The notes under the pieces: generated by a model | What the model saw: only the letters and a program-made list of their open reading frames with translations | What the model was told of the DNA's origin: nothing | Database searches by the model: none | In this document: positions 65 to 15,309 of the stretch, piece after piece | Layout of the letters: the number at the start of each line of letters is the position of its first letter | How positions within the stretch are numbered: position 1 is the stretch's first letter | Program-made: the position numbers and the translations under genes | DNA from: an uncultured Oscillibacter sp. | GTDB taxonomy: Bacteria; Bacillota; Clostridia; Oscillospirales; Oscillospiraceae | Direction: 5' to 3' | Assembly (NCBI GenBank): GCA_947577075.1 | Contig: CANPTW010000013.1 | Location: forward strand, 1-56,294 | Length of the DNA: 56,294 nt

Positions 65-1123
65 TCAGGGCCCCCCCATAATCTGCGCCGTCAGGTTCTC
101 CGCGAACCGGGCCAGCCGCTCCTCAATCCCCGGCAGGGCCAGGGCCGCCCCGGCGTCGTTGGCAGTCTCCATCAAAATGGCCCCGGGGGGAAGCCGGAAG
201 CCCTTGTTCATGCAAAGCGACGACACCACCTGGCTGGCCACGATGTCCCCGCCGGAGTAGCCGGAGACTACGACGGCAAAGACCGCCTTGTCCTCGAAGG
301 ACGTGGTCCGGTAGAGGGCCGTCAGGCGGTTTACGGCGGCGGTGAGGTTGGCGGAAAGGGCGTCGTTGTAGTTGGGGCAGAGGAGAACCACCGCGTCCGC
401 CTCCCGGATGGCGGGGAAGACCTCCTGCACCATGACGCCGCCGTAAAAGCAGCCCCCCCGCTCCCCGAAGTGGAGGCAGGTGGTGTAGGCGCACCCGGCG
501 CAGTCCTCCAGGGTCCCGTTCCGAAGGCCGAGCTCCCGGACCTCGCAGCTTCCCTCGATGCGCGCCCGGACCCGGCTCCAGAGATCCAAGGTGTTGGAGG
601 TGGCCCGGCTGGAGGCGTGAAGGGCCAGGACCTTGGGCCGCTGCCGCCGGGGGGGCGTGAAGTTCAACACCCGCTCCGCCAGGTCCCCCACCGCCAGGCG
701 GTAGGCCGCGTCCAGGTCACAGCCCGCGTTTTTCGCCTGGACGGCGAAGTTTTGGAGCCCTCCCACAGCCTCCACCAGGGGGCGGCCCGGGAACGCGCAG
801 CCCGCCAGGTTGGCCGCCAGCACCAGGTCCCGCCCGGCGGCCTTGGTGTACAGCTCCCCGGCCCCGTCGATCACCACGCCCCCCACGCTGCCCCGGAGGC
901 AGCCCGGGCGGTCCCGCAAAAAGGCCAGGAGGCCGCCCAGGCTCACGTTGAACCCGTTCTCCGGCAGGGAGAAGGCGAAGAGAATCCGCCGGTTCCGGAG
1001 GGGCTCGCCGTCCCCCGCAAACCGGAAGGGGACGCCTTCCAGGGCGGCGGCCAGCGTCCGGCCCAGGCGGCCCTCCAAGCAGCCGGGGCGGCCCGCGTGG
1101 AGAATCAGCAGCTCGCGTTCCAT
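65..1123 (-). CDS. Flavodoxin-like NAD(P)H-dependent FMN oxidoreductase
   Basis: This 352-aa protein has a C-terminal flavodoxin/NADPH-dependent FMN reductase-like domain at about residues 163-345. It opens with KVLALHASSRATSNT, the phosphate-binding strand-loop of the family, and a CPNYND segment at 249-254 fits the second FMN loop. Cysteines at 208, 211, 216 and 225 between them resemble the Cys-rich insert of iron-sulfur flavoproteins, but a cluster is not certain. Residues 1-160 also look flavodoxin-like but are divergent. The ATG at 1123 follows GGAGGGG. It is the last gene of a three-gene leftward unit, 12 bp after the dehydrogenase-like gene. It probably transfers electrons from NAD(P)H through FMN; the acceptor is unknown. 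Confidence 0.7.
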   Translation of the reverse strand: MERELLILHAGRPGCLEGRLGRTLAAALEGVPFRFAGDGEPLRNRRILFAFSLPENGFNVSLGGLLAFLRDRPGCLRGSVGGVVIDGAGELYTKAAGRDLVLAANLAGCAFPGRPLVEAVGGLQNFAVQAKNAGCDLDAAYRLAVGDLAERVLNFTPPRRQRPKVLALHASSRATSNTLDLWSRVRARIEGSCEVRELGLRNGTLEDCAGCAYTTCLHFGERGGCFYGGVMVQEVFPAIREADAVVLLCPNYNDALSANLTAAVNRLTALYRTTSFEDKAVFAVVVSGYSGGDIVASQVVSSLCMNKGFRLPPGAILMETANDAGAALALPGIEERLARFAENLTAQIMGGP

Positions 1124-1135
1124 AGGGCCCCTCCT

Positions 1136-2305
1136 TCAGGAAATTTCGCGCAGCGCCCGCTCCGTCTCCCGGAGGCGGGCAAAGAGGGCGTCCGGCAGCT
1201 CCAGCGTCTCCAGCTCCAGGCCATGACGGGGCACAAAGCGGTTCCGGCACCCAAACCACACGCCCCCCAGGGGCGCCGAGGAGCAGTGCCACTCCCCCCG
1301 GAGGGTCAGGAGGAGCTGCAGCGCTCCCGAGGAGATGGCGGGGGCCACGTAGGGCTTGAAGCCCAGGTCCCGGATCCGGAGGTTGGCCTCCAGGGCCAGC
1401 CGGGTCAGCTCCCGGGAGAGGGCATCGTCGTAATGCCGGATGGAGTTGGCGACGACCAGGCCCTGCCCGTGGGGGCCGAAGACCCGGCCCTCGGTGAAAA
1501 AGGAAGCGAAGCGGGGGTCCCGCTTTGCAAAGTAGGCCGCCCGGGCGCTCATCACCCCCAGGCCGAAGCCCTGAACCTGCTCGGGGAGAAGGCCCAGGTG
1601 GTCCAGCTTCCCGTCCGGCCCCAGGTTGGAGGCCCGCCAAACCGCCCGGCACAGGGGGTCCACCGGGTCGCTGAGGACGGCGAAGAGCCCCCGGAAGCCC
1701 GCCGCCCGGGCCTGCCGGGCGAAGGACTCTGCCAGGGGGCGGTTCGCCTCCAGCTGGGCCATGCGCACGTCCTTCACGCCGCTGCCCACGGGGGGGATTG
1801 CCTTGGTGGCGGCGAAAACGAACACGTCGCAGTCGAAGAGCCGCTCCGGAGGAACCGCCTCCACCTCCGGCAGGGCGTCGTACTGCAGGGGGCAGGAGGA
1901 AATCTGGCCCATCTCCATGACCCACCGGGCCACGGCCTTCTCATTGAGGTCGTGGATGCCGATGGCGGAAAGGACGCCGGCGCCCTCCAGCTTCAGGGCG
2001 GTCAGCAAAATGCCTCCCACGTCTCCCACCGCCAGCAGGTGAAGGCGTTTTTTCCCGGGCCTGGGGGCGGCAAATTCCAATGCCCGCTCCCAGCGGGGAT
2101 GGCGGACGTTGACCCCCGTCGCCGCCCCGTGCGGAAGGGCGGCCCGGACCGCCTCCGGCAGGGCCGGGGCCTCCCCCAGCCGCCGGGGGTCCAGCCAGCG
2201 GACGTCCGGGGGCTCCGCCGCCAGCTGCCGCGGGTCCGTGACCCGCCACGCGGCGGGGCCCAGGGCGGGGTCAAACTCCCTTTTGTACAGCAGGGTTTCT
2301 ATCAT
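1136..2305 (-). CDS. Lactate/malate dehydrogenase-like NAD-binding protein
   Basis: This 389-aa protein has a nucleotide-binding fold starting near residue 88 (LHLLAVGDVGGILLTALKL), followed by an acidic strand end (IHDLNEK, 118-123). This is the layout of the lactate/malate dehydrogenase superfamily. A later VLSDPVDPL segment matches the SNPVD-type motif that follows the NAD-binding half in that family. The glycine motif is atypical and the classical active-site Arg/His triad was not identified, so the substrate is unknown and catalysis is not assured. About 85 N-terminal residues precede the fold. It lies 12 bp before the oxidoreductase gene and 15 bp after the 1,597-aa gene, so the three are probably co-transcribed. 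Confidence 0.6.
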   Translation of the reverse strand: MIETLLYKREFDPALGPAAWRVTDPRQLAAEPPDVRWLDPRRLGEAPALPEAVRAALPHGAATGVNVRHPRWERALEFAAPRPGKKRLHLLAVGDVGGILLTALKLEGAGVLSAIGIHDLNEKAVARWVMEMGQISSCPLQYDALPEVEAVPPERLFDCDVFVFAATKAIPPVGSGVKDVRMAQLEANRPLAESFARQARAAGFRGLFAVLSDPVDPLCRAVWRASNLGPDGKLDHLGLLPEQVQGFGLGVMSARAAYFAKRDPRFASFFTEGRVFGPHGQGLVVANSIRHYDDALSRELTRLALEANLRIRDLGFKPYVAPAISSGALQLLLTLRGEWHCSSAPLGGVWFGCRNRFVPRHGLELETLELPDALFARLRETERALREIS

Positions 2306-2320
2306 ACGCAGTGTCTCCTG

Positions 2321-5300
2321 TCATTTCAAAAGCTCCCGTATCCGGTCCAGCTGCCGGAGATCGCTCTCCAGGCACACCGAGGCGGAGAGGTTCGGGTCGT
2401 ACCGCAGGGCCGCCCCCTTGTCCGGCGACAGGGGGAGGATTACCGCCTCGCTGAGCCGGGAGAGGATCAGGTTCCGGGAATAGCGCTCCCGATAGGCCCG
2501 CTCCAGGGCCAGGAGGATCTCCCGGCTGTTCTCAATGCAGGTCCGGGAGAAGCGGAACACCGCCTCCCGGCCGCACTCCCGGTAGAACCGGGGGGACGCG
2601 TAGGGCAGGATCAGGTTCACCGCCGGGGTCAGCCCCGGCACCGAGGGGACCGCCTTGTCCACGGCGTCCCCCCCGATGAAGGGGTACATGGTGGACTCCA
2701 CAAACCAGGCCCGGAGGTCCGGCACGAAATAGACGCTGTCCACCGTCCGGCCCCGGGCGGCCATCAGGTCCCGCCCCCGGCCGGAGAGAAGGCCCACCAC
2801 GCAGCGGTCAATTTCCAGCTCCTCCCGCCGGAAGAGGGGGTCCAGGGCGTTGATCCGGTTCCCGGTGTGGAGCAGGTCGTCCACCAGCATGACGGGGCGG
2901 CGGAAGGAGCGGATGGTCCGGATCTGGCTCTCCAGGGGGGCGTATCCGGGGAAGGGGGCGATGGAGAAGGAACGGAGATCCGGAGCATAGACCTTGTCGG
3001 TGTGAATGGTCTTGGTGACGGTGTTGGGCACGGCGTTTCCCCGGAGAATTTTGCCGAAGGGGACGCACATCTTGCGCCCCAGGACCCGGGGCGTCTGGGG
3101 CTCGGCGGGGACGCCGTTCTCCTCCGTCAGCTTCCGGACCAGGCGGTGATAGATGACCTCGGCGTTGAGGGACAGCACCAGGGACCCCGGGTACAGCCCG
3201 CAGATCGCCTCCTGCAGGCGGAGGTGGGCGCCGCGTATGGCGGAGAGGACCTGCCGGTCCGAGGCGAAGGGCTCCTTCAGCGTGGTGGGGATGTTCTGCA
3301 CCAGCACCGCCGGGGACCGCATGTCCACCAGCAGAAGGGGCCGGGGCGTCCTCAGGTCCTTGCAGCGGACGAAGCCCTGGCGCTCCAGGAGCTCCAGGTC
3401 CTCCTCTCCGGCCTCGGCCCACCAGACGGCATAGCCGCAGTCCTCCTCCGCCGCCCGGGTCAGCACCTCCGTCAGCAGGAGCTGGCGGGCGTCGTAGTTC
3501 CCGCCGGGGGTGCGGACGGCCCAAAGGCCCGTCAGCAGCTGGACCCGCCCCGCCGTCCGGGTGCGGACCCAGTTGGCGGTGTCCTCGCTGCCGAAGGCGT
3601 CGTACAGCTCCCCGGAGTTGATGGTCCGGGCGGTCAGGAAGCCCAGGACCCGGGGCCGGGGCCCCGCGGCCCGGAGGAGGAAGACGCTGTCCCGGGGGTC
3701 CGCCGGGGGCAGGGGGCCCAGGGCCCGGACCAGCTCCTCCCAGAGGGCCCGGTCCGGCCGGTCCTCCCGGGCGAAGTCCAGGAAGCTGGCCCGGACCAGC
3801 TGCTTGTACTGGGGCTCCCGGAGGTAGAGGCTGTTGCGGTAAATCAGGTCCTGCACCGTGGGGTCCACCAGGTTGGACACGTCCCGGCCCAGGTCGATGT
3901 TCTCCCGGATGCGGGTGGAGCTGATGTCCTCCAGGTGGGTGGGCAGCTGGAGCTGGATCACATGGCCGGTGATGCAGCTCAGGTCCGCGTCGATCTCCCG
4001 GCCCTCGGCGTCGCTGGAGCGGCGGAAGACGATGTGGTTCAGGGAGTGGACGGACCCCTCCCTGGGGGCGACCCTATAGGAAGAGGCGTTGGCCACCACG
4101 TCGGAGCCCACCACGAGGTACAGCTCCCGGTCCCGGAACACCTCCCGCAGGCGGATCAGGTCCTCCGGCGTGGCCAGGTTCACCGGGATGTCATGGGGGA
4201 AGAGGTACACGTCGAACTCGTCGGCGACGGACATGCTGACGATCTGCCGCCGGATGAGGGAGGGCTGGGCCTTCTTGGACCAGGAGAACTCGTCCACGGC
4301 CAGATACACCTCCATCCCCAGGTCCCGGATGGCGGTGACGATGCCCTTGTGGGAGAGGGAAAAGGGGTCGAAGGTGCCGGGGAAGAAGGCGGCGGCCTTG
4401 CTGCGCCACTCGAAGACGAAGGGGCCGCTCTCGATCCGGTGGGCCACGGCGAAGCGGTAGATGTGGGACAGGGCGGCGGCGGTGTAGTAGAAGGTCAGCT
4501 CCTGCTCCTCCTGCTCCCCGATGAGGAAGAGGAGCTTTTTGGCCGTCAGGGTGAAGAGGGCCGTCTTCTCCCCATAGCTCAGCTCCCGGGAGGCGAACAG
4601 CCCCTCCCCCAGGACCCGCAGGGCCTCCTGCCGCACGGGCTCCATGCAGGAGGCCAGGCCCTTCAAGAGGAGGCCCGCCATCCGCCTGCGGCGGCGGTCC
4701 AGGGTTTCCTCCCCCTCCCGGAAGCGCTTTCCGTAGACCCGGTAATGCTCCAGCAGGGACCCCACGGTGCTGAGGGCCGCCGCCGCCACCTCAGCGCTGG
4801 AGGAGGAGAGGAAGCGCAGCAGCTCGTCCAGAATCTCGTCCAGCTCCCGGGGCGTGAGCCAGAGAAGGAACTGGCCCAGATAGGGGGGGATATACTGGGA
4901 AATCTGGGACTGCCCCGTCTCCAGGGCCTCGCACAGCTCCACGGCCACCTCGTTCCGCCGGGGCGGGGACAGCTGGGGGGCGATGTCCAGCAGGGCGTTG
5001 CCCGCCAGGCGGCGGACCACCACGTTCTCGCTGACCTTCATGAGGTTGGAAAAATGGGTGGCAATGTGGAAGGCGCCCACGGCCTCCCCCCGGCGGGCCT
5101 GGTCCAGCAGGTATTCCACGCCCACGGCCTTCAGCACCCAGGGGGTGGCCGTCTTCAGGTTATCCAGGAAGACGGCGCTGGCCGCCTCCCCCTGGTCCAG
5201 CAGCTTCCGGTGGCCGGACACGTCCAGCCCCAGGGCGCTCCCCAGGCGGAACTGGAGGTAGAGCAGCGGCGTGCTGGAACGGCAGTCCGCCGCCGCCACG

Positions 5301-7114
5301 GCCCGGGCGACGCCCGCCCGCTCCGGGGAGTCCCCCTCCAGCGCCGGCAGCAGGCAGCGGCAAAGCCGCATGGCCGCGGCCTTCTGGGGGGCCTCGCCGC
5401 TTTCCAGCCACCAGGCGGCGAAGTCCGCCAGCCGCCCCGCGTCCCGGCGGGCGATCCGCTCCATGGGCAGGTTCAGGGCCGTGTTCATCAGGGCGAAGGC
5501 CCCCTCGGCGTCCTCGGCGGCGGGGTCCTGATAGTGGCGGAAGAGGAGCTCGGCAAAGCGGGGGAAGTCCCCGTCCGAGCAGCCGCCCAGCAGGGCGTCC
5601 GCCGCGGTCTTGGCCTGGTAGCGGATCATGCTGATCTGCCGGGGGGTCAGGCGGCGGTCCGGGTGGATGAGCTTTTCCAGGTACTCCGCCCACAGCTCGA
5701 AGGGGCGCTCCTCCTGGGGGCTGGGGGCCGCGTCCCGGGGCAGCTCCTTCTTGTAGCCGGAGAGAAATTTGGAGAGGATCTGCCCCATCAGCCCCGCCGC
5801 CTGGCGGCGGATGTCCCCGTCCGGCTGGAGCAGCAGCTCATAGAGGAACTCCAGGGTCTGTTCCTTCTGCTCCACGGTCCAATAGGTGAAGTACTCCCGG
5901 AAGATGGACACATAGGCCCGGATGCGGGCGGGGTCCTTCTCCCCCCGGGCGGCCTCCAGGGTGCCCACGAACAGGCGCTCCCGGCTCAGGCGGTGCATCA
6001 GGCGGATGTTGTGGTCCACCGCCGTCCGCCGCAGACCCAGGACCACCTCGTCCTCGCTCATGAGGGCGGCGTCCTTCCGGGGCAGGGGCGGCCCGCCGGG
6101 GGTCCTCAGCGTCACATCCACGCCGAAGGTCTGGAGATAGCCCTCGAAATCCTGGAGCTTCACGTAGACGTAGCGGTAGCGCCGCCGCTTGGCCGCGTCC
6201 ACGTCGTCCAGCTTGGAGAGGATGACGTCAAAGGCCTCCGCCAGGGAGAAGAGCTTCGCCGTCTCCCGGCCCTCCCCGTCCCGCTCCTGCTTCACCCGGA
6301 AGTCCGCGTAGACCAGAACCAGGGACTCGGAGGACAGGTTCTCCAGCTCCAGGTCCCAGACGGAGTGGTTGGCGGCAATGCGCCCCAGGGCGTCCAGCCC
6401 CCGCCAGGAAAACCACTGGTCCGTGTAGTAGTAGTGGAGGTAGGGCACCCGCTCCCCGGGGCGGCAGCCGAATTTTCCCAGGTCGTGCCCCGCGGCGGCG
6501 GCGGAGATCAGCCCCAGGTCGATCTTCCCGCCCCCGGCCCGGAAGGCCCGGGAAACCGCCATGGACACATGGTGGACCCCGGCGATGTGCTCGCAGGTGC
6601 GGAAGGGGGTGACCTCCCGCCCCAGGCGGAGGAGCTCGTAGACGTACTCCTCCCGCCAGCGGCGGAGGAACTGGCGGTACTCCTCCGCCAGGTTGCTGGA
6701 CTTCAGCTCCTCCTCGGAGCAGAAGTCGAAGTCCAGCCAGAAGTCAAAGGGCAGGACCCGCCGCTCCGCGTCCAACAGCGTCCGCAGAAACTGGAGGAAG
6801 CACAGCGCCCCGTCCCGCTGGGCGGGGCTGTGGCCCGGGTCCCCCCGGGGGAAGAGGAGGGAGCCCGCCACCTGATAGGCATAGGGGAGCCAGCCCTCCT
6901 CCGGCGGCGGGGCGGCGGCGTCCAGCACGGGGCGGAAGGCCTCCAGCGCCTCCCCGCAGACAATGCGCCGCCGGATGGGCAGCAGGGGCGCCGCCAGGGT
7001 CCGCCAGTCCGCCCCGTCAAAGAGCCGGGCGGCGTCCGCCTGGGGCCGGGCCAGCTTCCGAAAGAACGCCTCCTCCCGGAAAGCGCCGGCCAGATCCAAA
7101 AAGAGCTGTTCCAT
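2321..7114 (-). CDS. Giant HD / HEAT / NadD-like / GNAT-like / PRTase-like fusion protein
   Basis: This 1,597-aa protein combines several apparent domains. An HD phosphohydrolase-like domain lies at about 175-275: His181, the AGHDLGK motif at 208-214, His250 and Asp271. Residues about 390-900 are helical and repetitive with Leu/Ala-rich HEAT/ARM-like units. A NadD/cytidylyltransferase-like domain begins near 911 with FFPGTFDPFSLSHKG, and its partner motif SSTRIREN lies near 1062. A GNAT-like stretch follows at about 1180-1270 (WWAEAGEEDLELLERQGFV). Near 1408 is MLVDDLLHTGNR, which matches the PRPP loop of type I phosphoribosyltransferases. The combination suggests nucleotide or NAD-precursor metabolism, but the real reaction is unknown. 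The ATG at 7114 follows GGAGG. It heads the leftward three-gene unit. Confidence 0.75.
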   Translation of the reverse strand: MEQLFLDLAGAFREEAFFRKLARPQADAARLFDGADWRTLAAPLLPIRRRIVCGEALEAFRPVLDAAAPPPEEGWLPYAYQVAGSLLFPRGDPGHSPAQRDGALCFLQFLRTLLDAERRVLPFDFWLDFDFCSEEELKSSNLAEEYRQFLRRWREEYVYELLRLGREVTPFRTCEHIAGVHHVSMAVSRAFRAGGGKIDLGLISAAAAGHDLGKFGCRPGERVPYLHYYYTDQWFSWRGLDALGRIAANHSVWDLELENLSSESLVLVYADFRVKQERDGEGRETAKLFSLAEAFDVILSKLDDVDAAKRRRYRYVYVKLQDFEGYLQTFGVDVTLRTPGGPPLPRKDAALMSEDEVVLGLRRTAVDHNIRLMHRLSRERLFVGTLEAARGEKDPARIRAYVSIFREYFTYWTVEQKEQTLEFLYELLLQPDGDIRRQAAGLMGQILSKFLSGYKKELPRDAAPSPQEERPFELWAEYLEKLIHPDRRLTPRQISMIRYQAKTAADALLGGCSDGDFPRFAELLFRHYQDPAAEDAEGAFALMNTALNLPMERIARRDAGRLADFAAWWLESGEAPQKAAAMRLCRCLLPALEGDSPERAGVARAVAAADCRSSTPLLYLQFRLGSALGLDVSGHRKLLDQGEAASAVFLDNLKTATPWVLKAVGVEYLLDQARRGEAVGAFHIATHFSNLMKVSENVVVRRLAGNALLDIAPQLSPPRRNEVAVELCEALETGQSQISQYIPPYLGQFLLWLTPRELDEILDELLRFLSSSSAEVAAAALSTVGSLLEHYRVYGKRFREGEETLDRRRRRMAGLLLKGLASCMEPVRQEALRVLGEGLFASRELSYGEKTALFTLTAKKLLFLIGEQEEQELTFYYTAAALSHIYRFAVAHRIESGPFVFEWRSKAAAFFPGTFDPFSLSHKGIVTAIRDLGMEVYLAVDEFSWSKKAQPSLIRRQIVSMSVADEFDVYLFPHDIPVNLATPEDLIRLREVFRDRELYLVVGSDVVANASSYRVAPREGSVHSLNHIVFRRSSDAEGREIDADLSCITGHVIQLQLPTHLEDISSTRIRENIDLGRDVSNLVDPTVQDLIYRNSLYLREPQYKQLVRASFLDFAREDRPDRALWEELVRALGPLPPADPRDSVFLLRAAGPRPRVLGFLTARTINSGELYDAFGSEDTANWVRTRTAGRVQLLTGLWAVRTPGGNYDARQLLLTEVLTRAAEEDCGYAVWWAEAGEEDLELLERQGFVRCKDLRTPRPLLLVDMRSPAVLVQNIPTTLKEPFASDRQVLSAIRGAHLRLQEAICGLYPGSLVLSLNAEVIYHRLVRKLTEENGVPAEPQTPRVLGRKMCVPFGKILRGNAVPNTVTKTIHTDKVYAPDLRSFSIAPFPGYAPLESQIRTIRSFRRPVMLVDDLLHTGNRINALDPLFRREELEIDRCVVGLLSGRGRDLMAARGRTVDSVYFVPDLRAWFVESTMYPFIGGDAVDKAVPSVPGLTPAVNLILPYASPRFYRECGREAVFRFSRTCIENSREILLALERAYRERYSRNLILSRLSEAVILPLSPDKGAALRYDPNLSASVCLESDLRQLDRIRELLK

Positions 7115-7218
7115 GGGTTCCTCCGTTCCGCCCAGGGGGCCGGTGGTTGTTTGATAGGGACAGTATACCGCAGTTAGCCGCCGGGGGGAAGGGGGAAAGC
7201 AAAAAAAGCCGGGTTCGC

Positions 7219-7826: not shown

Positions 7827-8531
7827 TCAGTATCGGTTCCGGATCACATCCCGATGACTCCCGTCCGAGAGGTCCGTGAACCGTACGAAGAGGGAAATCT
7901 TATTCTCCGGGTGCAGGGCCCCCCAGACCTGGTCCGCCAGGGCCTCGGGGCTCTCCCAGTCCAGGGCCACCCGCTCCGGGTCCCCGGCGAAGGAGGGCAG
8001 GGGATTCCCGTCCCCCAGGTAGGTGTGGAGAAAGCGGCCCTCCCCGGGAAGGGGCGCGTCGTAGTCGTAGAAATACCGGCAGCAGCAATCCGGGCTGCCC
8101 TCGGCGCTCTTCAAAATGGAGAGCTGGAAGCTGCCGTCGGGGCTCAGCAGGCCGGAAATCCGGGGGGTGTAGTTGGGCGCGTCCGGCTCAAAGGTCCGCT
8201 GCCTAAGCGCCTCGGCGAAGGTGCGGCCCTCCAGCAGGTAATCCCGCACCGTGTCCGTCTGGTCCCCGTTGGTGACGATCAGGTCCCGGCCGGCTTCCCG
8301 CACCGGGTGGTAGATGATGAGGCTGGGGTCCGTCATTTTGGCGGGGTCCGCCGCCTCGGTGCGGATGCCGTCCTCCGTGGGGACGAAACGGCGGTTCCGG
8401 GAGTTTCCGCTCCGGCCCATGATGAAGTACACGGCCACGGCCCGCCCGCCGTCGGCGCTCTTGCCCAGGACGATGCCCCGCCCGGGGTAGGGGTTGCTGT
8501 TCAGCAGGTCCAGAAGATTCAGCTTTTCCAT
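7827..8531 (-). CDS. purO: IMP cyclohydrolase, PurO type
   Basis: This 234-aa protein matches the archaeal-type IMP cyclohydrolase family. It has the N-terminal NPYPGRGIVLGKS motif, the AVYFIMGRSGNSRNRRF motif and a central IIYHPVRE/VTNGDQTD region. The family closes FAICAR to IMP, the last step of purine synthesis, in organisms where the cyclohydrolase is not fused to PurH. It follows the metallopeptidase gene by 24 bp at the tail of the pyr cluster, so it is likely co-transcribed with pyrimidine genes. The ATG at 8531 follows GGAGG. The conserved N-terminal motif makes the family call strong; activity is inferred. Confidence 0.85.
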   Translation of the reverse strand: MEKLNLLDLLNSNPYPGRGIVLGKSADGGRAVAVYFIMGRSGNSRNRRFVPTEDGIRTEAADPAKMTDPSLIIYHPVREAGRDLIVTNGDQTDTVRDYLLEGRTFAEALRQRTFEPDAPNYTPRISGLLSPDGSFQLSILKSAEGSPDCCCRYFYDYDAPLPGEGRFLHTYLGDGNPLPSFAGDPERVALDWESPEALADQVWGALHPENKISLFVRFTDLSDGSHRDVIRNRY

Positions 8532-9525: not shown

Positions 9526-10446
9526 TCAAACGCGGATATCGAGAAGCTTCATGATCAGCGCCATGCGGATAAACTTGCCGTTTTTCACCTGCTTCCAGTA
9601 GGCGGCCCGGGGGTCCTTGTCCACCGCCACGGCGATCTCGTTCACCCGGGGCAGGGGGTGGAGGATGGAGAGGTCCTGCTTGGCCGTCTCCAGCTTCTCC
9701 GGGGTGAGGATATAGCTGTCCTTCAAGCGGAGATAGTCCTCCTCGTTGAAGAAGCGCTCCCGCTGGACCCGGGTCATATAGAGGATGTCCAGCTCCGGCA
9801 TGACCTCCTCCAGGCTCTCCGTCTGCTTATAGGGGATGCCCCGCTTTTTCAGGGCCTCCTCCTTCACGTAGCGGGGCAGCTTCAATTCCGCCGGGGAGAT
9901 GAGGACGAACTTGACCTTCTCGTACCGGCTCAGGGCGTTCACCAGGGAGTGGACCGTCCGGCCGAATTTCAGGTCCCCGCAGAAGCCGATGGTAAAGCCG
10001 TCCAGCCGCCCCTTCTCCCGGTGGATGGTGAGGAGGTCCGTCAGCGTCTGGGTGGGGTGGTTGTGCCCCCCGTCCCCGGCGTTGATGATGGGGACCTCGC
10101 TGAACTGGGCGGCGGCGTAGGGCGCGCCCTCCTTGGGGTGCCGCATGGCGATGATGTCCGCGTAGCAGCTCACCGTGTGGACGGTGTCCCCCACCGTCTC
10201 CCCCTTGGCGGTGGAGCTGGAGGCGGCCTCGGAGAAGCCCAGCACGCCGCCCCCCAGGGCCAGCATGGCGGACTCGAAAGAGAGGCGGGTCCGGGTGGAG
10301 GGCTCGAAGAAGAGGGTGGCCAGCTGCCTGTGGGCGCAGGCGTCCTGATACTTGGCGGGGTTTGCCAGGATGTCCTCCGCCGTGGCGATGAGCTCGTCGA
10401 TCTCCTCTACCGAGAGGTCCGTAACGTCAATAATGTTTCTGGGCAT
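9526..10446 (-). CDS. pyrB: Aspartate carbamoyltransferase catalytic subunit
   Basis: The 306-aa protein has the carbamoyl-phosphate motif [12 protein letters not shown] near residue 50 and the [12 protein letters not shown] and HPLPRVNEI motifs of aspartate transcarbamylase. It makes carbamoyl-aspartate from carbamoyl phosphate and aspartate. The ATG at 10446 follows AAAGGAG. A 145-bp gap (10447-10591) separates it from pyrE. No clear promoter or terminator was found there, so read-through from the pyr promoter is assumed. Confidence 0.96.
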
Positions 10447-10591
10447 ATAGGCTCCTTTCTGAGTATGCGAAATCATAAGGCAACGCCGGAGGGCACGCCG
10501 GAAGAAGGGCAGGCCCCACAGTCCAGCGCCGGATCAGCGGCAGCGGGGAGGGCCGGACAGTCCTTGCATCGACCGCCAAAACCCCCGCCCG

Positions 10592-11230
10592 TCAGGGCGC
10601 AATCCAGCTCTCGTCCGACGGGTTCGCCCGGAATTTTTTCAGGCGGTCGATGTCCTCGGGCCGGATCTTCCCCTCCGCCGCCGCGACGTCGCACACCGCG
10701 TCGAAGTTCGAGAGGCTGTAGTTGGCCACGCCCGCCGCCGCCAGGCGGTCCAGGCCCTTCTGGAGCCCATAGGTGAAGATGGACGCGACGCCCAGCACCT
10801 CGGCCCCGGCCTCCCGGAGGGCCTCCACCACGTCGATGCAGCTTCCGGCGGTGGAGATCAGGTCCTCGACGACGACGACCCTCCATCCGGGCTCCAGCTT
10901 CCCTTCAATGCGGTTCTGCCGCCCGTGGTCCTTGCCGCTGGAGCGGACGTAGCCCATGGGCAGGCCCATGAGGTGGCCCACGATGGCGGCGTGGGCGATG
11001 CCGGCGGTGGAGGTGCCCATGAGGACCTCCACATTGGGATAGTGCCTGCAGATGAGGTCCACCAGCCCCTCCTCCACGTGGGTCCGGACCTCCGGGGCGG
11101 TGAGGGTCAGGCGGTTGTCGCAGTAGATGGGGCTCTTGATGCCGCTGGCCCAGGTGAAGGGCTGGTCGGGGCGGAGGAACACCGCGCCGATGGATAGAAG
11201 GTCGTGGGCAATGGTCTGTTCACGGGTCAT
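10592..11230 (-). CDS. pyrE: Orotate phosphoribosyltransferase
   Basis: The 212-aa protein shows the OPRTase pattern: [16 protein letters not shown] near residue 27, [11 protein letters not shown], and the PRPP loop [13 protein letters not shown] near residue 117. It joins orotate to PRPP to give OMP. The ATG at 11230 follows AAGGAGG. It lies 13 bp after the small unknown gene and is part of the pyr operon. Confidence 0.95.
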
Positions 11231-11243
11231 ATCAAAATCCTCC

Positions 11244-11624
11244 TTATGGTTGCAGTTCCGAGGCTGTGTATACGAGTTCCAGATCGCCGTCCACAAATCC
11301 GGCGGCGACGGCCTGAAAGGCCTTCATGACATCGGCGCGGCTTCCCCGTTCCAGGTAGGCCGTCAGGGCGGAGACCGCCTCCGCCTGGGCGGCCTCCCAG
11401 CCGCCCTCCCGGCGGAAACGGAATGGGTCCTCCCGGAAGGCGGCAGTCTCGCCGCAGGCCCAGTCCGGGTCTGCCGGATCGAAGCGGTCCGCCCCGATCA
11501 GCTCGGCGGACCAGGCGGCGGGCCCGTCCTCGTAGAGGTTCAGGCACAGGGCGGCGGTCCGGTCCGGAAACCGCCGGGAGAGCAGGCGGTCCAGCCAGGA
11601 AAAGAATCGTGCCTGTTCCATCAC
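11244..11624 (-). CDS. Unknown 126-aa protein inside the pyr operon
   Basis: This product was not recognised. It is acidic and aromatic-rich ([21 protein letters not shown] at the start, then [15 protein letters not shown]), with no signal peptide or membrane segment, and looks like a compact alpha/beta protein. The GTG at 11624 is followed at once by ATG at 11621; either overlaps the pyrF stop, so it is translationally coupled. pyrE follows after 13 bp. Its position between pyrF and pyrE suggests a link to UMP synthesis, but no function can be assigned. Confidence 0.75.
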
Positions 11625-12331
11625 GCAGCCTTTCCCAAAAATTCCTTTACCGCCCGGCGGTAGGCCGCCACGGGGTCCGCGTCCTTCGTGATGGGGCGGC
11701 CCATGACGATGTAGTCGCAGCCGCTCTTCCCGGCCTGTTCCGGGGTCATGACCCGCTTTTGGTCCCCCGCGTCCCCGCCGGCGAAGCGGACGCCGGGGGT
11801 GACGGTGCAGAAGTTCTCCCCGCAGCGCTCCTTGACCAGGGCCGCCTCCAGGGGGGAGCAGACCACGCCGTCCAGGCCGCTGGCGGCGGCGTTCTTAGCG
11901 TAGGAGAGCACCGTCTCCGCCATGGGAGTCTCAATCAGCAGCTCGTCCTTGAGGGCGGCGGCGTCGGTGCTGGTGAGCTGGGTGACGGCGATGAGCAGGG
12001 GCCTGGTGCCGTCGGGCCGGGTCAGGCCCTCCAGGGCGGCCCGCATCATGGCGGAGGCCCCGGCGGCGTGGAGGTTCACCATGTCCACGTCCAGGCCGGA
12101 GAGGACCGCCATGGCCCGCTTCACGGTGTTGGGGATGTCGTGGAGCTTTAAGTCCAGGAAGATCTTGTGCCCCCGGGCCTTGATCTCCCGGACGATGGAC
12201 GGTCCCTCGGCGTAGTACAGCTCCATGCCGATCTTTACAAAGGGCTTTTCCCCCGCGGGGAAACGGTCTAGGAATGCCAGGGTCTTCTCCCGGGTGGGGA
12301 AGTCCAGGGCGATGATCACGTCATTCGCCAT
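11621..12331 (-). CDS. pyrF: Orotidine 5'-phosphate decarboxylase
   Basis: The 236-aa protein has the active-site motif [13 protein letters not shown] near residue 60 (the Asp-x-Lys-x-x-Asp core), a VIIALDFPT start and a C-terminal YIVMGRPIT phosphate-binding strand. It converts OMP to UMP. The start overlaps the end of pyrD by 11 bp and its stop overlaps the next gene, so translation is coupled through this part of the operon. Confidence 0.96.
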
Positions 12332-13244
12332 GATGCGCTCCTCCTGTCAAATCAGAAATTTTGTCCACGCCCAGGCGCTGGCACACGCCGGGCAGATCCT
12401 CGATGATGGTTTTGCAGGCCCAGGGGTCCCGGAGATTCGCCGCCCCCACCTCCACGGCGGAGGCCCCCGCCAGCAGCATTTCCGCCGCCGCCCCGGCGCT
12501 GTCCACGCCGCCGCAGCCGATGATGGGGAGCTTGGGAACGGCCTCGTACACGTCCCACACCATCCGCACCGCCACCGGAAACACGGCGGGGCCGGAGAGG
12601 CCCCCGGTGCGGTTGGCCAGCAGGGGCCGCTTCGTGTTCAGGTCGATGCGCATGCCAAGCAGGGTGTTGATGAGGCACAATCCGTCGGCCCCCTCGTCCG
12701 CGCAGGCCCGGGCGATCTCCGCAATGTCCGTCACGTTGGGGCTGAGCTTCAGGAAGACGGGCTTTTTCGTGGCCGCCCGGACGGCCCGGGTGACGGCGGC
12801 GGCGCTCTTCGGGTCGGAGCCGAAGTTCTTCCCCCCGGCGTGGACGTTGGGGCAGGAGATGTTGACCTCCAGGATTTTCACCTGCTCCGCGTCTTCCAAT
12901 GCCCGGCAGTTCTCCGCGTACTCCTCCAGGGAGAAGCCGCAGACGTTGGCGATGACCGGGCCGTGGAAGTGCTCCGCAATCCAGGGGACCTCCTCCCGGA
13001 GGACCGCCTCCATGCCGGGGTTCTGGAGGCCCACGGCGTTCAGCATGCCGGAGGCCGTCTCCGCGATGCGGGGCTGGGGATTCCCGGGCCGGGGGTCCCG
13101 GGTGGTGCCCTTCCAGGAGAAGGCGCCCAGGATATCCAAATCGTAAGTGTCCGCGAACTCCCGGCCGTAGCCGAAGGTCCCGGAGGCGGGGATAATGGGA
13201 TTTTTCAGGGTCACCCCCGCCAGATGGACGGAAAGGTCTACCAT
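12321..13244 (-). CDS. pyrD: Dihydroorotate dehydrogenase catalytic subunit (class 1B)
   Basis: The 307-aa flavoprotein has the class 1 features [13 protein letters not shown] at the start, [13 protein letters not shown] with the catalytic-loop Cys near residue 130, KLSPNVTDI, and a C-terminal [12 protein letters not shown] phosphate site. It oxidises dihydroorotate to orotate. The overlapping pyrK gene upstream supplies the FAD/2Fe-2S electron-transfer subunit, so this is the NAD-dependent 1B type. Confidence 0.95.
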
Positions 13245-13975
13245 AGGATGTCCTCCTTTCGGAACACGGGCCCGTCCTTGCAGACCCGGCGGAGGCCCGC
13301 CCGCGTCTCAATGGTGCAGCCCACGCAGGCCCCGAAGCCGCAGGCCATCCGGGCCTCGAAGCTGAACTGGCCCCCGGTGAGCTGGGGCAGGGCGTGGACG
13401 GCCCGGAGCATGGGCGTGGGGCCGCAGGCCAGGACGCAGGTGCAGCCGGGGAGGGTTTTCAGCACGTCGGTGACGAAGCCGCGGGCGCCCAGGGTCCCGT
13501 CCTCCGTGGCGGTCAGGACATCCACGCCCAGGGCGGCGAATTCCTCCAGGTAGAAGGCGTCCTCCCGGGAGCGGAAGCCCAGGATCAGCGCGGGCCTTCG
13601 CCCCGCCGCCAGCATCCGCCTGGCCAGGCCGCAGAGGGGCGCGGCGCCGATGCCGCCGCCCACCAGGACGGCTCCCTCCGGCGCGGCGGCAATGTCAAAG
13701 CCGTTCCCCAGGCCGGAGAGAACATTCAGTTCCGTCCCGGCGGGGAGGCGGACCAGCTCTTTCGTGCCCTCGCCCGCCTCCTTCACAAGTAAGGTCAGGC
13801 CCTCCTGGTCCCAGTCGCAGACGGAGATGGGCCGCCGGAGAAATTTGCCGGGCAATTCGATGTTGACGAACTGCCCCGGGGCGGTGACGGCGGAGGTATC
13901 GCCGGACAGGCGGAGCTCCCACACGTCCCCGGTCAATTGCCGGGTCCGCTCCAGCGTAAAGATTCCCTGTTTCAT
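13238..13975 (-). CDS. pyrK: Dihydroorotate dehydrogenase electron-transfer subunit
   Basis: The 245-aa protein has a ferredoxin-reductase layout: an FAD-binding barrel with RRPISVCDW near residue 51, an NAD-binding region with LVGGGIGAAPL near 105, and a C-terminal 2Fe-2S cluster loop CGFGACVGC plus a later Cys in RRVCKDGPVF. It passes electrons from PyrD to NAD+. It overlaps pyrD by 7 bp and pyrC by 4 bp (ATGA). Confidence 0.95.
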   Translation of the reverse strand: MKQGIFTLERTRQLTGDVWELRLSGDTSAVTAPGQFVNIELPGKFLRRPISVCDWDQEGLTLLVKEAGEGTKELVRLPAGTELNVLSGLGNGFDIAAAPEGAVLVGGGIGAAPLCGLARRMLAAGRRPALILGFRSREDAFYLEEFAALGVDVLTATEDGTLGARGFVTDVLKTLPGCTCVLACGPTPMLRAVHALPQLTGGQFSFEARMACGFGACVGCTIETRAGLRRVCKDGPVFRKEDILW

Positions 13976-15309
13976 GGCGTTCCTCCTTTGGGGCGGTCAC
14001 AGCCCCGGACGATTCCAATGACCCCGTGAGGGGACGGTTCCACCCCCTCCGGGAAGACGATGGCCCCGTCCACCAGCGTCATGGAGACGGCGGCGTCCAC
14101 CCGCCGCCCGGCGAAGGGCGTGGCCCGGCCTAGGGACCGGAAGCCCGCCGGGTCCACGATCCCCGCGTGGTCCAGGTCCAGCACCGTCAAATCGGCGGGC
14201 TGTCCCTCCGCAATCTGCCCGCCGGGGAGGCGGAAGATTTTCCGGGGGTTGACGCACAGGGCGTTCAGAATGACCTCCAGGGGGACCTTCCCGGTCTTCA
14301 CCAGCTCCGTGTACAGCACCGGGAAGGCGCACTCCAGGCCCACCACGCCGTTGAGGCTTCCCCGGAGTCCCTTCGCTTTTTCCTCCGCCGCGTGGGGAGC
14401 GTGGTCCGTGGCGATGCAGTCCACCGTCCCGTCCAGCAGCCCTTCCACCAGCGCGTCCCGGTCCGCGGTGGAGCGGATGGGGGGATTCATCCGAAAGCGC
14501 CCGTCATCCTCCAGGTCCTCGTCGCAGAGGCAGAGGTAATGGGGCCCCGTCTCGCAGGTGACGGGGAGTCCCTCCGCCTTGGCGGCCCGGATCAGGGCCA
14601 CGCTCTCCTTGGTGGAGATGTGGCACACGTGATAGCGGCAGCCCGTCTCCCGGACCAGCCGGATATCCCGCTCCACCTGCCGCCACTCGCTGGCGGGGTC
14701 GTTGCCCGGGAGGCCGTGCCGCCTGGCAAAGGCCCCGTCGTGGACGCACCACCCCGGGGTCAGCAGGGACTCGTCCTCGCAGTGGGCCACGATGGGCCGG
14801 TCCAGCTTTTTGGCAAGCGCCATGGCCCGGCGCATCATGGCCGCCGACTGCACGCCCCGGCCGTCGTCGGAGAAGCCGGGGACATAGGGGGCCAGGGCCG
14901 CCATATCCGACAAAGATTCCCCCTTCTCCCCCCGGGTGACGGCCCCGTAGGGATAGACGTGAACGGCGGCGTCCCGTTCGATGGCGTCCAGCTCCGCCCG
15001 GAGATGGGGGAGGCCGTCCGGGACGGGATTCAGGTTGGGCATGGCGCAGAGGGCGGTATAGCCTCCCGCCGCCGCCGCCGCCGTGCCGGAGGCCACCGTC
15101 TCCTTATAAGAAAATCCAGGCTCCCGAAGATGCACGTGAACATCAACGAAACCTGGAACAACAAGGCCATGATTCAATTCAACGACGGAAGCGCCGTCCC
15201 GGGGAAGGCGGGGGGAAACGGAAACAATACGCCCCTCGGAAACGGCAATCTCCAGGGGGTGGAAGCCCCCGCCGCAAAAGACGGACCCGCCGGTCAGCAG
15301 CAGACGCAT
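13972..15309 (-). CDS. pyrC: Dihydroorotase
   Basis: The 445-aa protein has the amidohydrolase metal motif DVHVHLREPG near residue 57, the metal-bridging region around 150, CHISTKE near 230 and CIATDHAPH near 303. It cyclises carbamoyl-aspartate to dihydroorotate. It is the first gene of the pyr operon; the ATG at 15309 follows GGAGAGGAG and lies about 30 bp from a consensus promoter. Confidence 0.95.
   Translation of the reverse strand: MRLLLTGGSVFCGGGFHPLEIAVSEGRIVSVSPRLPRDGASVVELNHGLVVPGFVDVHVHLREPGFSYKETVASGTAAAAAGGYTALCAMPNLNPVPDGLPHLRAELDAIERDAAVHVYPYGAVTRGEKGESLSDMAALAPYVPGFSDDGRGVQSAAMMRRAMALAKKLDRPIVAHCEDESLLTPGWCVHDGAFARRHGLPGNDPASEWRQVERDIRLVRETGCRYHVCHISTKESVALIRAAKAEGLPVTCETGPHYLCLCDEDLEDDGRFRMNPPIRSTADRDALVEGLLDGTVDCIATDHAPHAAEEKAKGLRGSLNGVVGLECAFPVLYTELVKTGKVPLEVILNALCVNPRKIFRLPGGQIAEGQPADLTVLDLDHAGIVDPAGFRSLGRATPFAGRRVDAAVSMTLVDGAIVFPEGVEPSPHGVIGIVRGCDRPKGGTP

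Follow-up and report, generated by a model that had tools for sequence, protein, structure and literature searches.

The window analysed here, 56,294 nucleotides from an uncultured Oscillibacter sp., encodes a 1,597-residue protein that joins HD, HEAT-repeat, NadD-like adenylyltransferase, GNAT-fold and phosphoribosyltransferase (PRTase)-fold domains, in this fixed order, in one chain. The fusion gene, a gene for an LDH-like protein and a gene for a flavoprotein form a three-gene module with almost strict co-occurrence. We tentatively propose, at somewhat less than even confidence, that the fusion gives Clostridia a second dinucleotide-handling enzyme, distinct from the housekeeping one, that works with two dedicated oxidoreductases.

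A five-domain protein in one reading frame

The fusion gene lies at positions 2321..7114 of the minus strand, begins with an ATG preceded by a GGAGG stretch, and includes its stop codon. A sequence-only reading of this DNA had described a 1,597-residue fusion at 2321-7114, naming no strand, and had called HD, HEAT, NadD-like, GNAT-like and PRTase-like domains. The gene was borne out, and all five calls were backed by profiles or models. The motifs it quoted could each be located: AGHDLGK at residues 208-214, GTFDPFSLSHKG at 913-924, SSTRIREN at 1065-1072 and MLVDDLLHTGNR at 1409-1420. That reading would have fallen with missing profile matches or with motif loss in orthologues; profiles matched, and most motif residues are kept.

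On its own, the window protein scored above the Pfam cut-offs for HEAT (one repeat) and CTP_transf_like only, and neither Pfam nor NCBIfam has a model that covers the fusion as a whole. AlphaFold2 models (pLDDT 88.8 and 91.1), together with family searches, support the predicted HEAT, NadD, GNAT-fold and PRTase-fold domains, while the putative HD domain is called from family matches and ligands.

The genome behind the window is at the draft stage (94 contigs, 83% complete) and has long antisense open reading frames, one of which overlaps the fusion gene and is longer than it (470-7177, plus strand, 2235 aa). This antisense frame appears to be a by-product of base composition. The motif residues of the fusion are kept across 84 aligned sequences and are therefore not due to chance. 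An artefact, whether mis-assembly, frameshift or spurious reading frame, is close to inconceivable, because the one-frame layout recurs in dozens of independent assemblies. It is also found in the complete genome of Oscillibacter valericigenes Sjm18-20 (L068) and in two single-contig genomes (G398 and G603).

Distribution of the fusion

Our contig scan yielded 200 confirmed relatives, the best 80 of which were kept. All of these 80 except L073 and L071, which run off their contigs, span nearly the whole query, with 44-87% identity in the best segment. Three partial matches of 105 (L073, L032 and L033) were left out; the alignments of the fusion held 50/58 (A1), 45/52 (A2), 26/52 (A3) and 41/84 (A4-A6) sequences, and those of the partner proteins 36/68 (A7) and 30/56 (A8). 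Protein length in the 84 sequences ranged from 1543 to 2164 residues (median 1613), the shortest being truncated where its contig ends, and the longest probably a product of start-site choice. Where matches came in two pieces (G360, G375, G620, G1020 and a second copy in G578), both pieces fell in open frames of identical length; in G348, the fusion is split over two contigs.

We then counted the fusion in genome samples at genus, order, class and phylum level, which overlap one another. A whole-genome search recovered it from 25/37 genomes of the same genus, and from 0/23 genomes of other families of the order once matches to the NadD part only were set aside. It was present in 3/245 genomes at the order level and 8/398 at the phylum level, the window's own genome included in both. 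At the class level, 34 genomes matched at E<=1e-12; excluding two that matched in the NadD part only (G283 and G400) left 32/391 (~8%), gut anaerobes among them. The fusion is absent from five genomes of the genus with a completeness of 95% or more (G003, G008, G009, G017 and G030), so it is dispensable in that genus.

Three other origins or roles were considered and rejected. A scan of viral contigs gave 41 pattern matches and no relative, which speaks against a phage origin. Among 72,556 plasmid records there was a single match (L183; NZ_CP154629.1, 2023538-2048139), to Acetoanaerobium noterae pTPELB2. This record carries the module, lists 4 features and is 2.63 Mb long, a size suggesting that it is a mislabelled chromosome. 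Finally, none of the PADLOC anti-phage defence families was matched by the three proteins at E<=0.01.

Two partner genes

The first partner, a 389-residue protein of the LDH/MDH superfamily, is encoded directly downstream of the fusion (1136..2305, minus strand). The NAD-binding domain PF00056 was detected in 35/36 members at E<=0.1, and structures of L-lactate dehydrogenase matched from E 1.7e-6. Unlike other proteins of the LDH/MDH family, however, the partner carries some 90 residues ahead of its NAD-binding domain, and its score is far under the cut-offs of LDH models. The second partner is a flavoprotein of 352 residues (65..1123, minus strand, also downstream), in which an FMN_red domain (PF03358, 30/30 members) follows an N-terminal part. 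It shares its domain with FMN_red flavoproteins and differs from them in this unassigned N-terminal part and in four invariant cysteines (C208, C211, C216 and C225, alignment A8). No PDB chain matched the A8 profile at E<=0.01. Neither partner figures in the sequence-only reading.

In the class sample, 31/32 fusion-bearing genomes contain the LDH-like gene and 30/32 the flavoprotein gene, and neither was found at E<=1e-30 in the other 359 genomes. The genome missing the LDH-like gene (G453) has only a partial fusion match; the flavoprotein is additionally missing in G512, where the matches are cut at a contig start. The LDH-like gene lies at most 500 bases from the fusion in 27/31 genomes, more than 5 kb away in two (G302 and G411), and on another contig in the remaining two. 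In the genus sample, 23/25 fusion-bearing genomes and 0/12 others have both partners; two fusion-bearing assemblies lack the pair, namely G002 (completeness 56%) and G028 (90%).

At the level of loci, 69 extend 2.6 kb or more past the fusion on its downstream side, a count that supersedes our earlier ones from codon-score gene picking (47/58 and 42/58 loci). Both partners are there in 59 of them and neither in eight (L043, L051, L052, L063, L064, L101, and the lone paralogues L170 and L173 discussed below). Of the remaining two, L109 lacks the flavoprotein and the region of L164 ends short. Two loci without adjacent partners belong to genomes that carry the pair on another contig (L043 in G013, which is 95% complete, and L064 in G021), so co-occurrence needs no adjacency. 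Across 60 loci, the identity matrices of the three proteins correlate (r 0.91, 0.91 and 0.87, against 0.29 for the best of 999 permutations), as would also be expected from shared descent alone. In one genome, the flavoprotein match falls in two pieces on two contigs (G007:C15 and G007:C30), and the LDH-like match starts at profile position 87.

The wider neighbourhood, beyond the two partners, showed only lineage-level neighbours. Upstream of the window's fusion is a run of pyrimidine genes (9526-15309, minus strand) encoding aspartate carbamoyltransferase, orotate PRTase, OMP decarboxylase, dihydroorotate dehydrogenase with its electron-transfer subunit, and dihydroorotase. A 234-residue protein at 7827-8531 (minus strand) matched the IMP cyclohydrolase PurO at E 8.6e-13, well under the cut-off. 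In L163 and L164 (G302 and G411), an ammonium transporter gene and three glutamate-synthase-like genes stand between the fusion and the LDH-like gene. In L111 and L093, the flavoprotein gene is followed by genes for a membrane sensor-like protein, a response regulator (both recognised by eye) and glutamate dehydrogenase. Riboswitches were considered as a functional clue and set aside as not general: an RNA scan of the window returned tRNAs only, and 18 loci of relatives contained one FMN riboswitch (L144 in G302, upstream of the fusion and before a gene resembling RibU by eye) and one cobalamin riboswitch (L158).

NadD-like and HD domains

The NadD-like domain (residues 905-1102; 3809..4402, minus strand) was recognised by profile and structure matches. 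The whole protein matches TIGR00482 (NadD) at E 4.2e-11 with 43.2 bits, below the curated cut-off of 112.45, and the domain has the nucleotidyltransferase fold with the GxFDP...H and ISSTxIR motifs. F915, D916, P917 and H922 are present in 84/84 sequences and G913 and R1070 in 83/84, ISSTxIR is nearly invariant, and the residues at the HxGH position are mostly (S/T)x(S/G)H. The NadD-type site with SSTRIREN predicted from the sequence is thus present and conserved among relatives. Non-conservative changes at G913, S1065, S1066 or R1070 occur in just two of the 84 sequences, L170 and L173; L105 carries S1065T. Canonical NadD (TIGR00482; PDB 3e27 and 1kaq) is the nearest family, although the fusion scores far lower than its cut-off and has Tyr in the alignment column of a canonical Trp that presumably serves in ring stacking. 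The domain also differs from canonical NadD in sitting within a five-domain chain, and it is additional to the genome's own canonical copy. In 12/12 fusion genomes tested, a NadD scoring over the cut-off of TIGR00482 lies close to a YqeK scoring over that of TIGR00488. In the three genomes of the genus tested for this (G000, G005 and G014), the two matches lie in equal-length frames, so housekeeping NadD and YqeK are probably one fused gene there; in the window's own genome they share an open frame of 510 codons (G000:C9:42245-43402).

These observations bear on the simplest function one could assign, a spare route of NAD salvage or proofreading in which nicotinate or nicotinamide would react with PRPP and the resulting NaMN or NMN would be converted to NaAD or NAD. 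Having NadD as the nearest family is in its favour, as is the existence of a NadD joined to an HD proofreading domain: PMC9426524 reports that the NadD-YqeK fusion of mycoplasmas proofreads NAD synthesis. We nevertheless reject a housekeeping NadD or NAD salvage as the main reading, and regard it as rather improbable, because canonical NadD and YqeK are present in all 12 fusion genomes tested. In addition, nicotinate and nicotinamide PRTases are of a different fold class from type I, the fusion falls far under the NadD cut-off, and a tie to two oxidoreductases is unexpected for a redundant enzyme.

The N-terminal helical region (residues 1-124; 6743..7114, minus strand), defined on the structure model, is the least conserved part of the protein (mean pairwise identity 0.30), and HEAT solenoids filled the N-terminal structure matches, among those listed. 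It is followed by the HD domain (residues 125-345; 6080..6742, minus strand), in which the putative ligands H176, H210, D211, H227, H250 and D271 are invariant in 84/84 sequences. PF01966 was matched by 29/41 members at E<=0.1 (best 2.5e-6), so that both ligands and family matches place the domain in the HD superfamily; the window member itself had no PF01966 match at E<=0.1. According to the review PMC8177086, the H..HD..H..H..D pattern is diagnostic of a dinuclear site and occurs in phosphatases and also in oxygenases.

YqeK was considered as the identity of this domain, and the case for it is weak. Searching 12 genomes with TIGR00488 (YqeK, Ap4A hydrolase) at E<=0.001 recovered canonical YqeK but not the fusion. 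Aligned with hhalign, the HD domain and the YqeK profile gave a probability of 5% (E 0.0078) with all six ligands paired; their order is the same and their spacing different. A dGTPase sequence scored better against the HD domain than YqeK did (E 1e-5). The NadD-YqeK proteins of mycoplasmas and Clostridia resemble the fusion in that an adenylyltransferase shares its chain with an HD domain of six ligands. In the fusion, however, the order is reversed, a HEAT solenoid lies between the two, GNAT and PRTase folds are added, and the HD domain, with its different spacing, is not recognisable as YqeK by profile.

HEAT, GNAT-fold and PRTase-fold regions

The long HEAT-like repeats noted from the sequence correspond to a solenoid at about residues 354-896 (4427..6055, minus strand), identified in the models and by family search, with Pfam HEAT above its cut-off and matches to HEAT solenoid structures. 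Large HEAT scaffolds typically serve macromolecular binding, and one of about 540 residues would suit an enzyme acting on a bound protein or RNA: the NadD fold would nucleotidylate this client, or a group on it, and the HD domain would remove the modification. A transferase and a hydrolase-like domain in one chain would fit such a cycle, and the two near-constant partners could be the clients. We consider this unlikely: the HEAT matches are generic, and the transferase is closest to NadD, a small-molecule adenylyltransferase, down to its GTFDP and ISSTxIR motifs.

The GNAT-fold domain (residues 1112-1279; 3278..3781, minus strand) has the fold that the sequence had suggested. It lacks the acetyl-CoA motif: (R/Q)xxGx(G/A) was found between residues 1195 and 1217 in 0/84 sequences.

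The type I PRTase-fold domain (residues 1284-1520; 2555..3265, minus strand) was called from Foldseek, from Pfam matches in relatives and from its loop. Foldseek matched it to the xanthine PRTase 1y0b_A (E 4.8e-5), and PF00156 was matched by 18/41 members at E<=0.1 (best 4.1e-5), the window member itself giving no match. Of the type I PRPP loop that had been proposed, the LVDD element is present and the end is not canonical. The atypical loop reads LVDDLLHTGNR, with D1412 kept in 83/84 sequences, D1413 in 79/84 (3 of the 5 replacements being Glu), G1418 in 82/84 and R1420 in 83/84. At the position of R1420, the last residue of the loop, Thr or Ser is the norm in type I PRTases. Fold and LVDD loop are common to the fusion and purine-type type I PRTases (xanthine PRTase 1y0b and HPRT), whereas the terminal Arg and a PNTVTKxxHTxK stretch, in which N1364 and T1365 are invariant in the 84 sequences, are the fusion's own. 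When 7 PRTases of the same genome were compared, HPRT was the best profile match (E 7e-4, over 30 residues). One locus, L179, has both partners and intact NadD motifs and has lost the conserved PRTase residues H1371 and T1372. The chain ends in a conserved tail defined on the model (residues 1521-1597; 2324..2554, minus strand); mean pairwise identity over residues 1501-1597 is 0.52.

Copies without partners

Three genomes (G431, G473 and G578) each carry a second copy of the fusion with no partner genes beside it (L173 on G431:C9, L170 on G473:C72 and L207 on G578:C22). All three lone copies have damaged NadD motifs, for example ISST changed to ASPA and GTFDP to DIFDP, and retain the HD ligands and the LVDD loop. 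The other copies in these genomes (L172, L169 and L208) have NadD motifs like the rest; L172 and L208 have adjacent partners, while L169 reaches the end of its contig, with the LDH-like gene on another one. NadD decay in copies without adjacent partners thus links the NadD site with the partner genes. A simple proofreading role is no explanation for HD and PRTase sites that are kept without NadD and, judged by their motifs, do not serve NadD alone. The HD domain had been proposed to break down the product or an alarmone. The domain is probably not just a clean-up device for the NadD product, because the lone paralogues keep their HD and PRTase motifs after losing those of NadD.

The same paralogues lend some weight to a role in signalling or sensing, in which the PRTase and HD domains would act on PRPP or an alarmone-like nucleotide by binding it or turning it over, NadD would make a regulatory dinucleotide, and the output would tune redox or nitrogen enzymes. 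The non-canonical PRPP loop and the motif-less GNAT fold point to binding more than to catalysis. In 6/84 loci the operon has glutamate dehydrogenase genes nearby, and in 2/84 an ammonium transporter with glutamate-synthase-like genes, both counts including loci that gave query sequences. We regard such a role as possible, though hardly probable. The nitrogen genes come from few loci, several of them related, and this context, like that of the riboswitches, is weak; almost every copy retains its NadD motifs, and the neighbourhoods examined showed no receptor or regulator conserved alongside the module.

Proposed function

Returning to the dinucleotide-handling enzyme, we envisage that the PRTase domain would make or bind a ribonucleotide, which the NadD domain may adenylylate with ATP to give an NAD-like dinucleotide. 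Reduction, oxidation or use of this product would fall to the LDH-like protein and the flavoprotein. The dimetal-type HD domain may hydrolyse a related phosphoanhydride, in turnover or proofreading, as YqeK is reported to do beside NadD. The HEAT solenoid could keep active sites or partners together, with the GNAT domain as a putative non-catalytic binding or structural part.

As far as sequence comparison can tell, NadD homology, the invariance of the HD ligands, the near-strict co-occurrence with the partners, the decay of NadD in lone copies, the reported NadD-YqeK proofreading fusion and the additional housekeeping NadD and YqeK argue for this proposal. The Arg-ended PRPP loop, the PRTase loss in L179, the HD and PRTase motifs kept in lone paralogues, the genomes without partners (G002 and G028), the loci without adjacent ones and an HD domain unlike YqeK argue against it. 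HD-type dimetal sites are found in oxygenases as well (PMC8177086), which also counts against it. The earlier suggestion that a PRTase and an adenylyltransferase together build a dinucleotide therefore stands in part: it agrees with NadD and HD conservation and with the redox partners, and sits poorly with the non-canonical loop, with L179, with the motif-less GNAT fold and with the loss of NadD motifs in the lone paralogues. A bolder version would make the three genes a cofactor pathway, with a non-NAD adenine dinucleotide assembled from a base by the PRTase and NadD steps, edited or recycled by the HD domain, and used in anaerobic metabolism by the dedicated LDH-family dehydrogenase and the Cys-rich flavoprotein as a redox carrier of their own. 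We offer this as a doubtful, speculative extension.

The folds involved are all known already. The sequence-only reading knew of no described enzyme with this layout, and a full-text search of open-licence papers likewise returned no description of the layout or of the three-gene module, so the combination and the module appear undescribed in that literature. The paralogues with lost NadD motifs provide a ready internal control for experiments. A protein of about 1,600 residues with fixed architecture is thus present in many Clostridia, from the gut and other anaerobic settings, and is linked to two oxidoreductases. If a dinucleotide is indeed made, the module would represent a second NAD-like route, and possibly a new redox cofactor, in common anaerobes.
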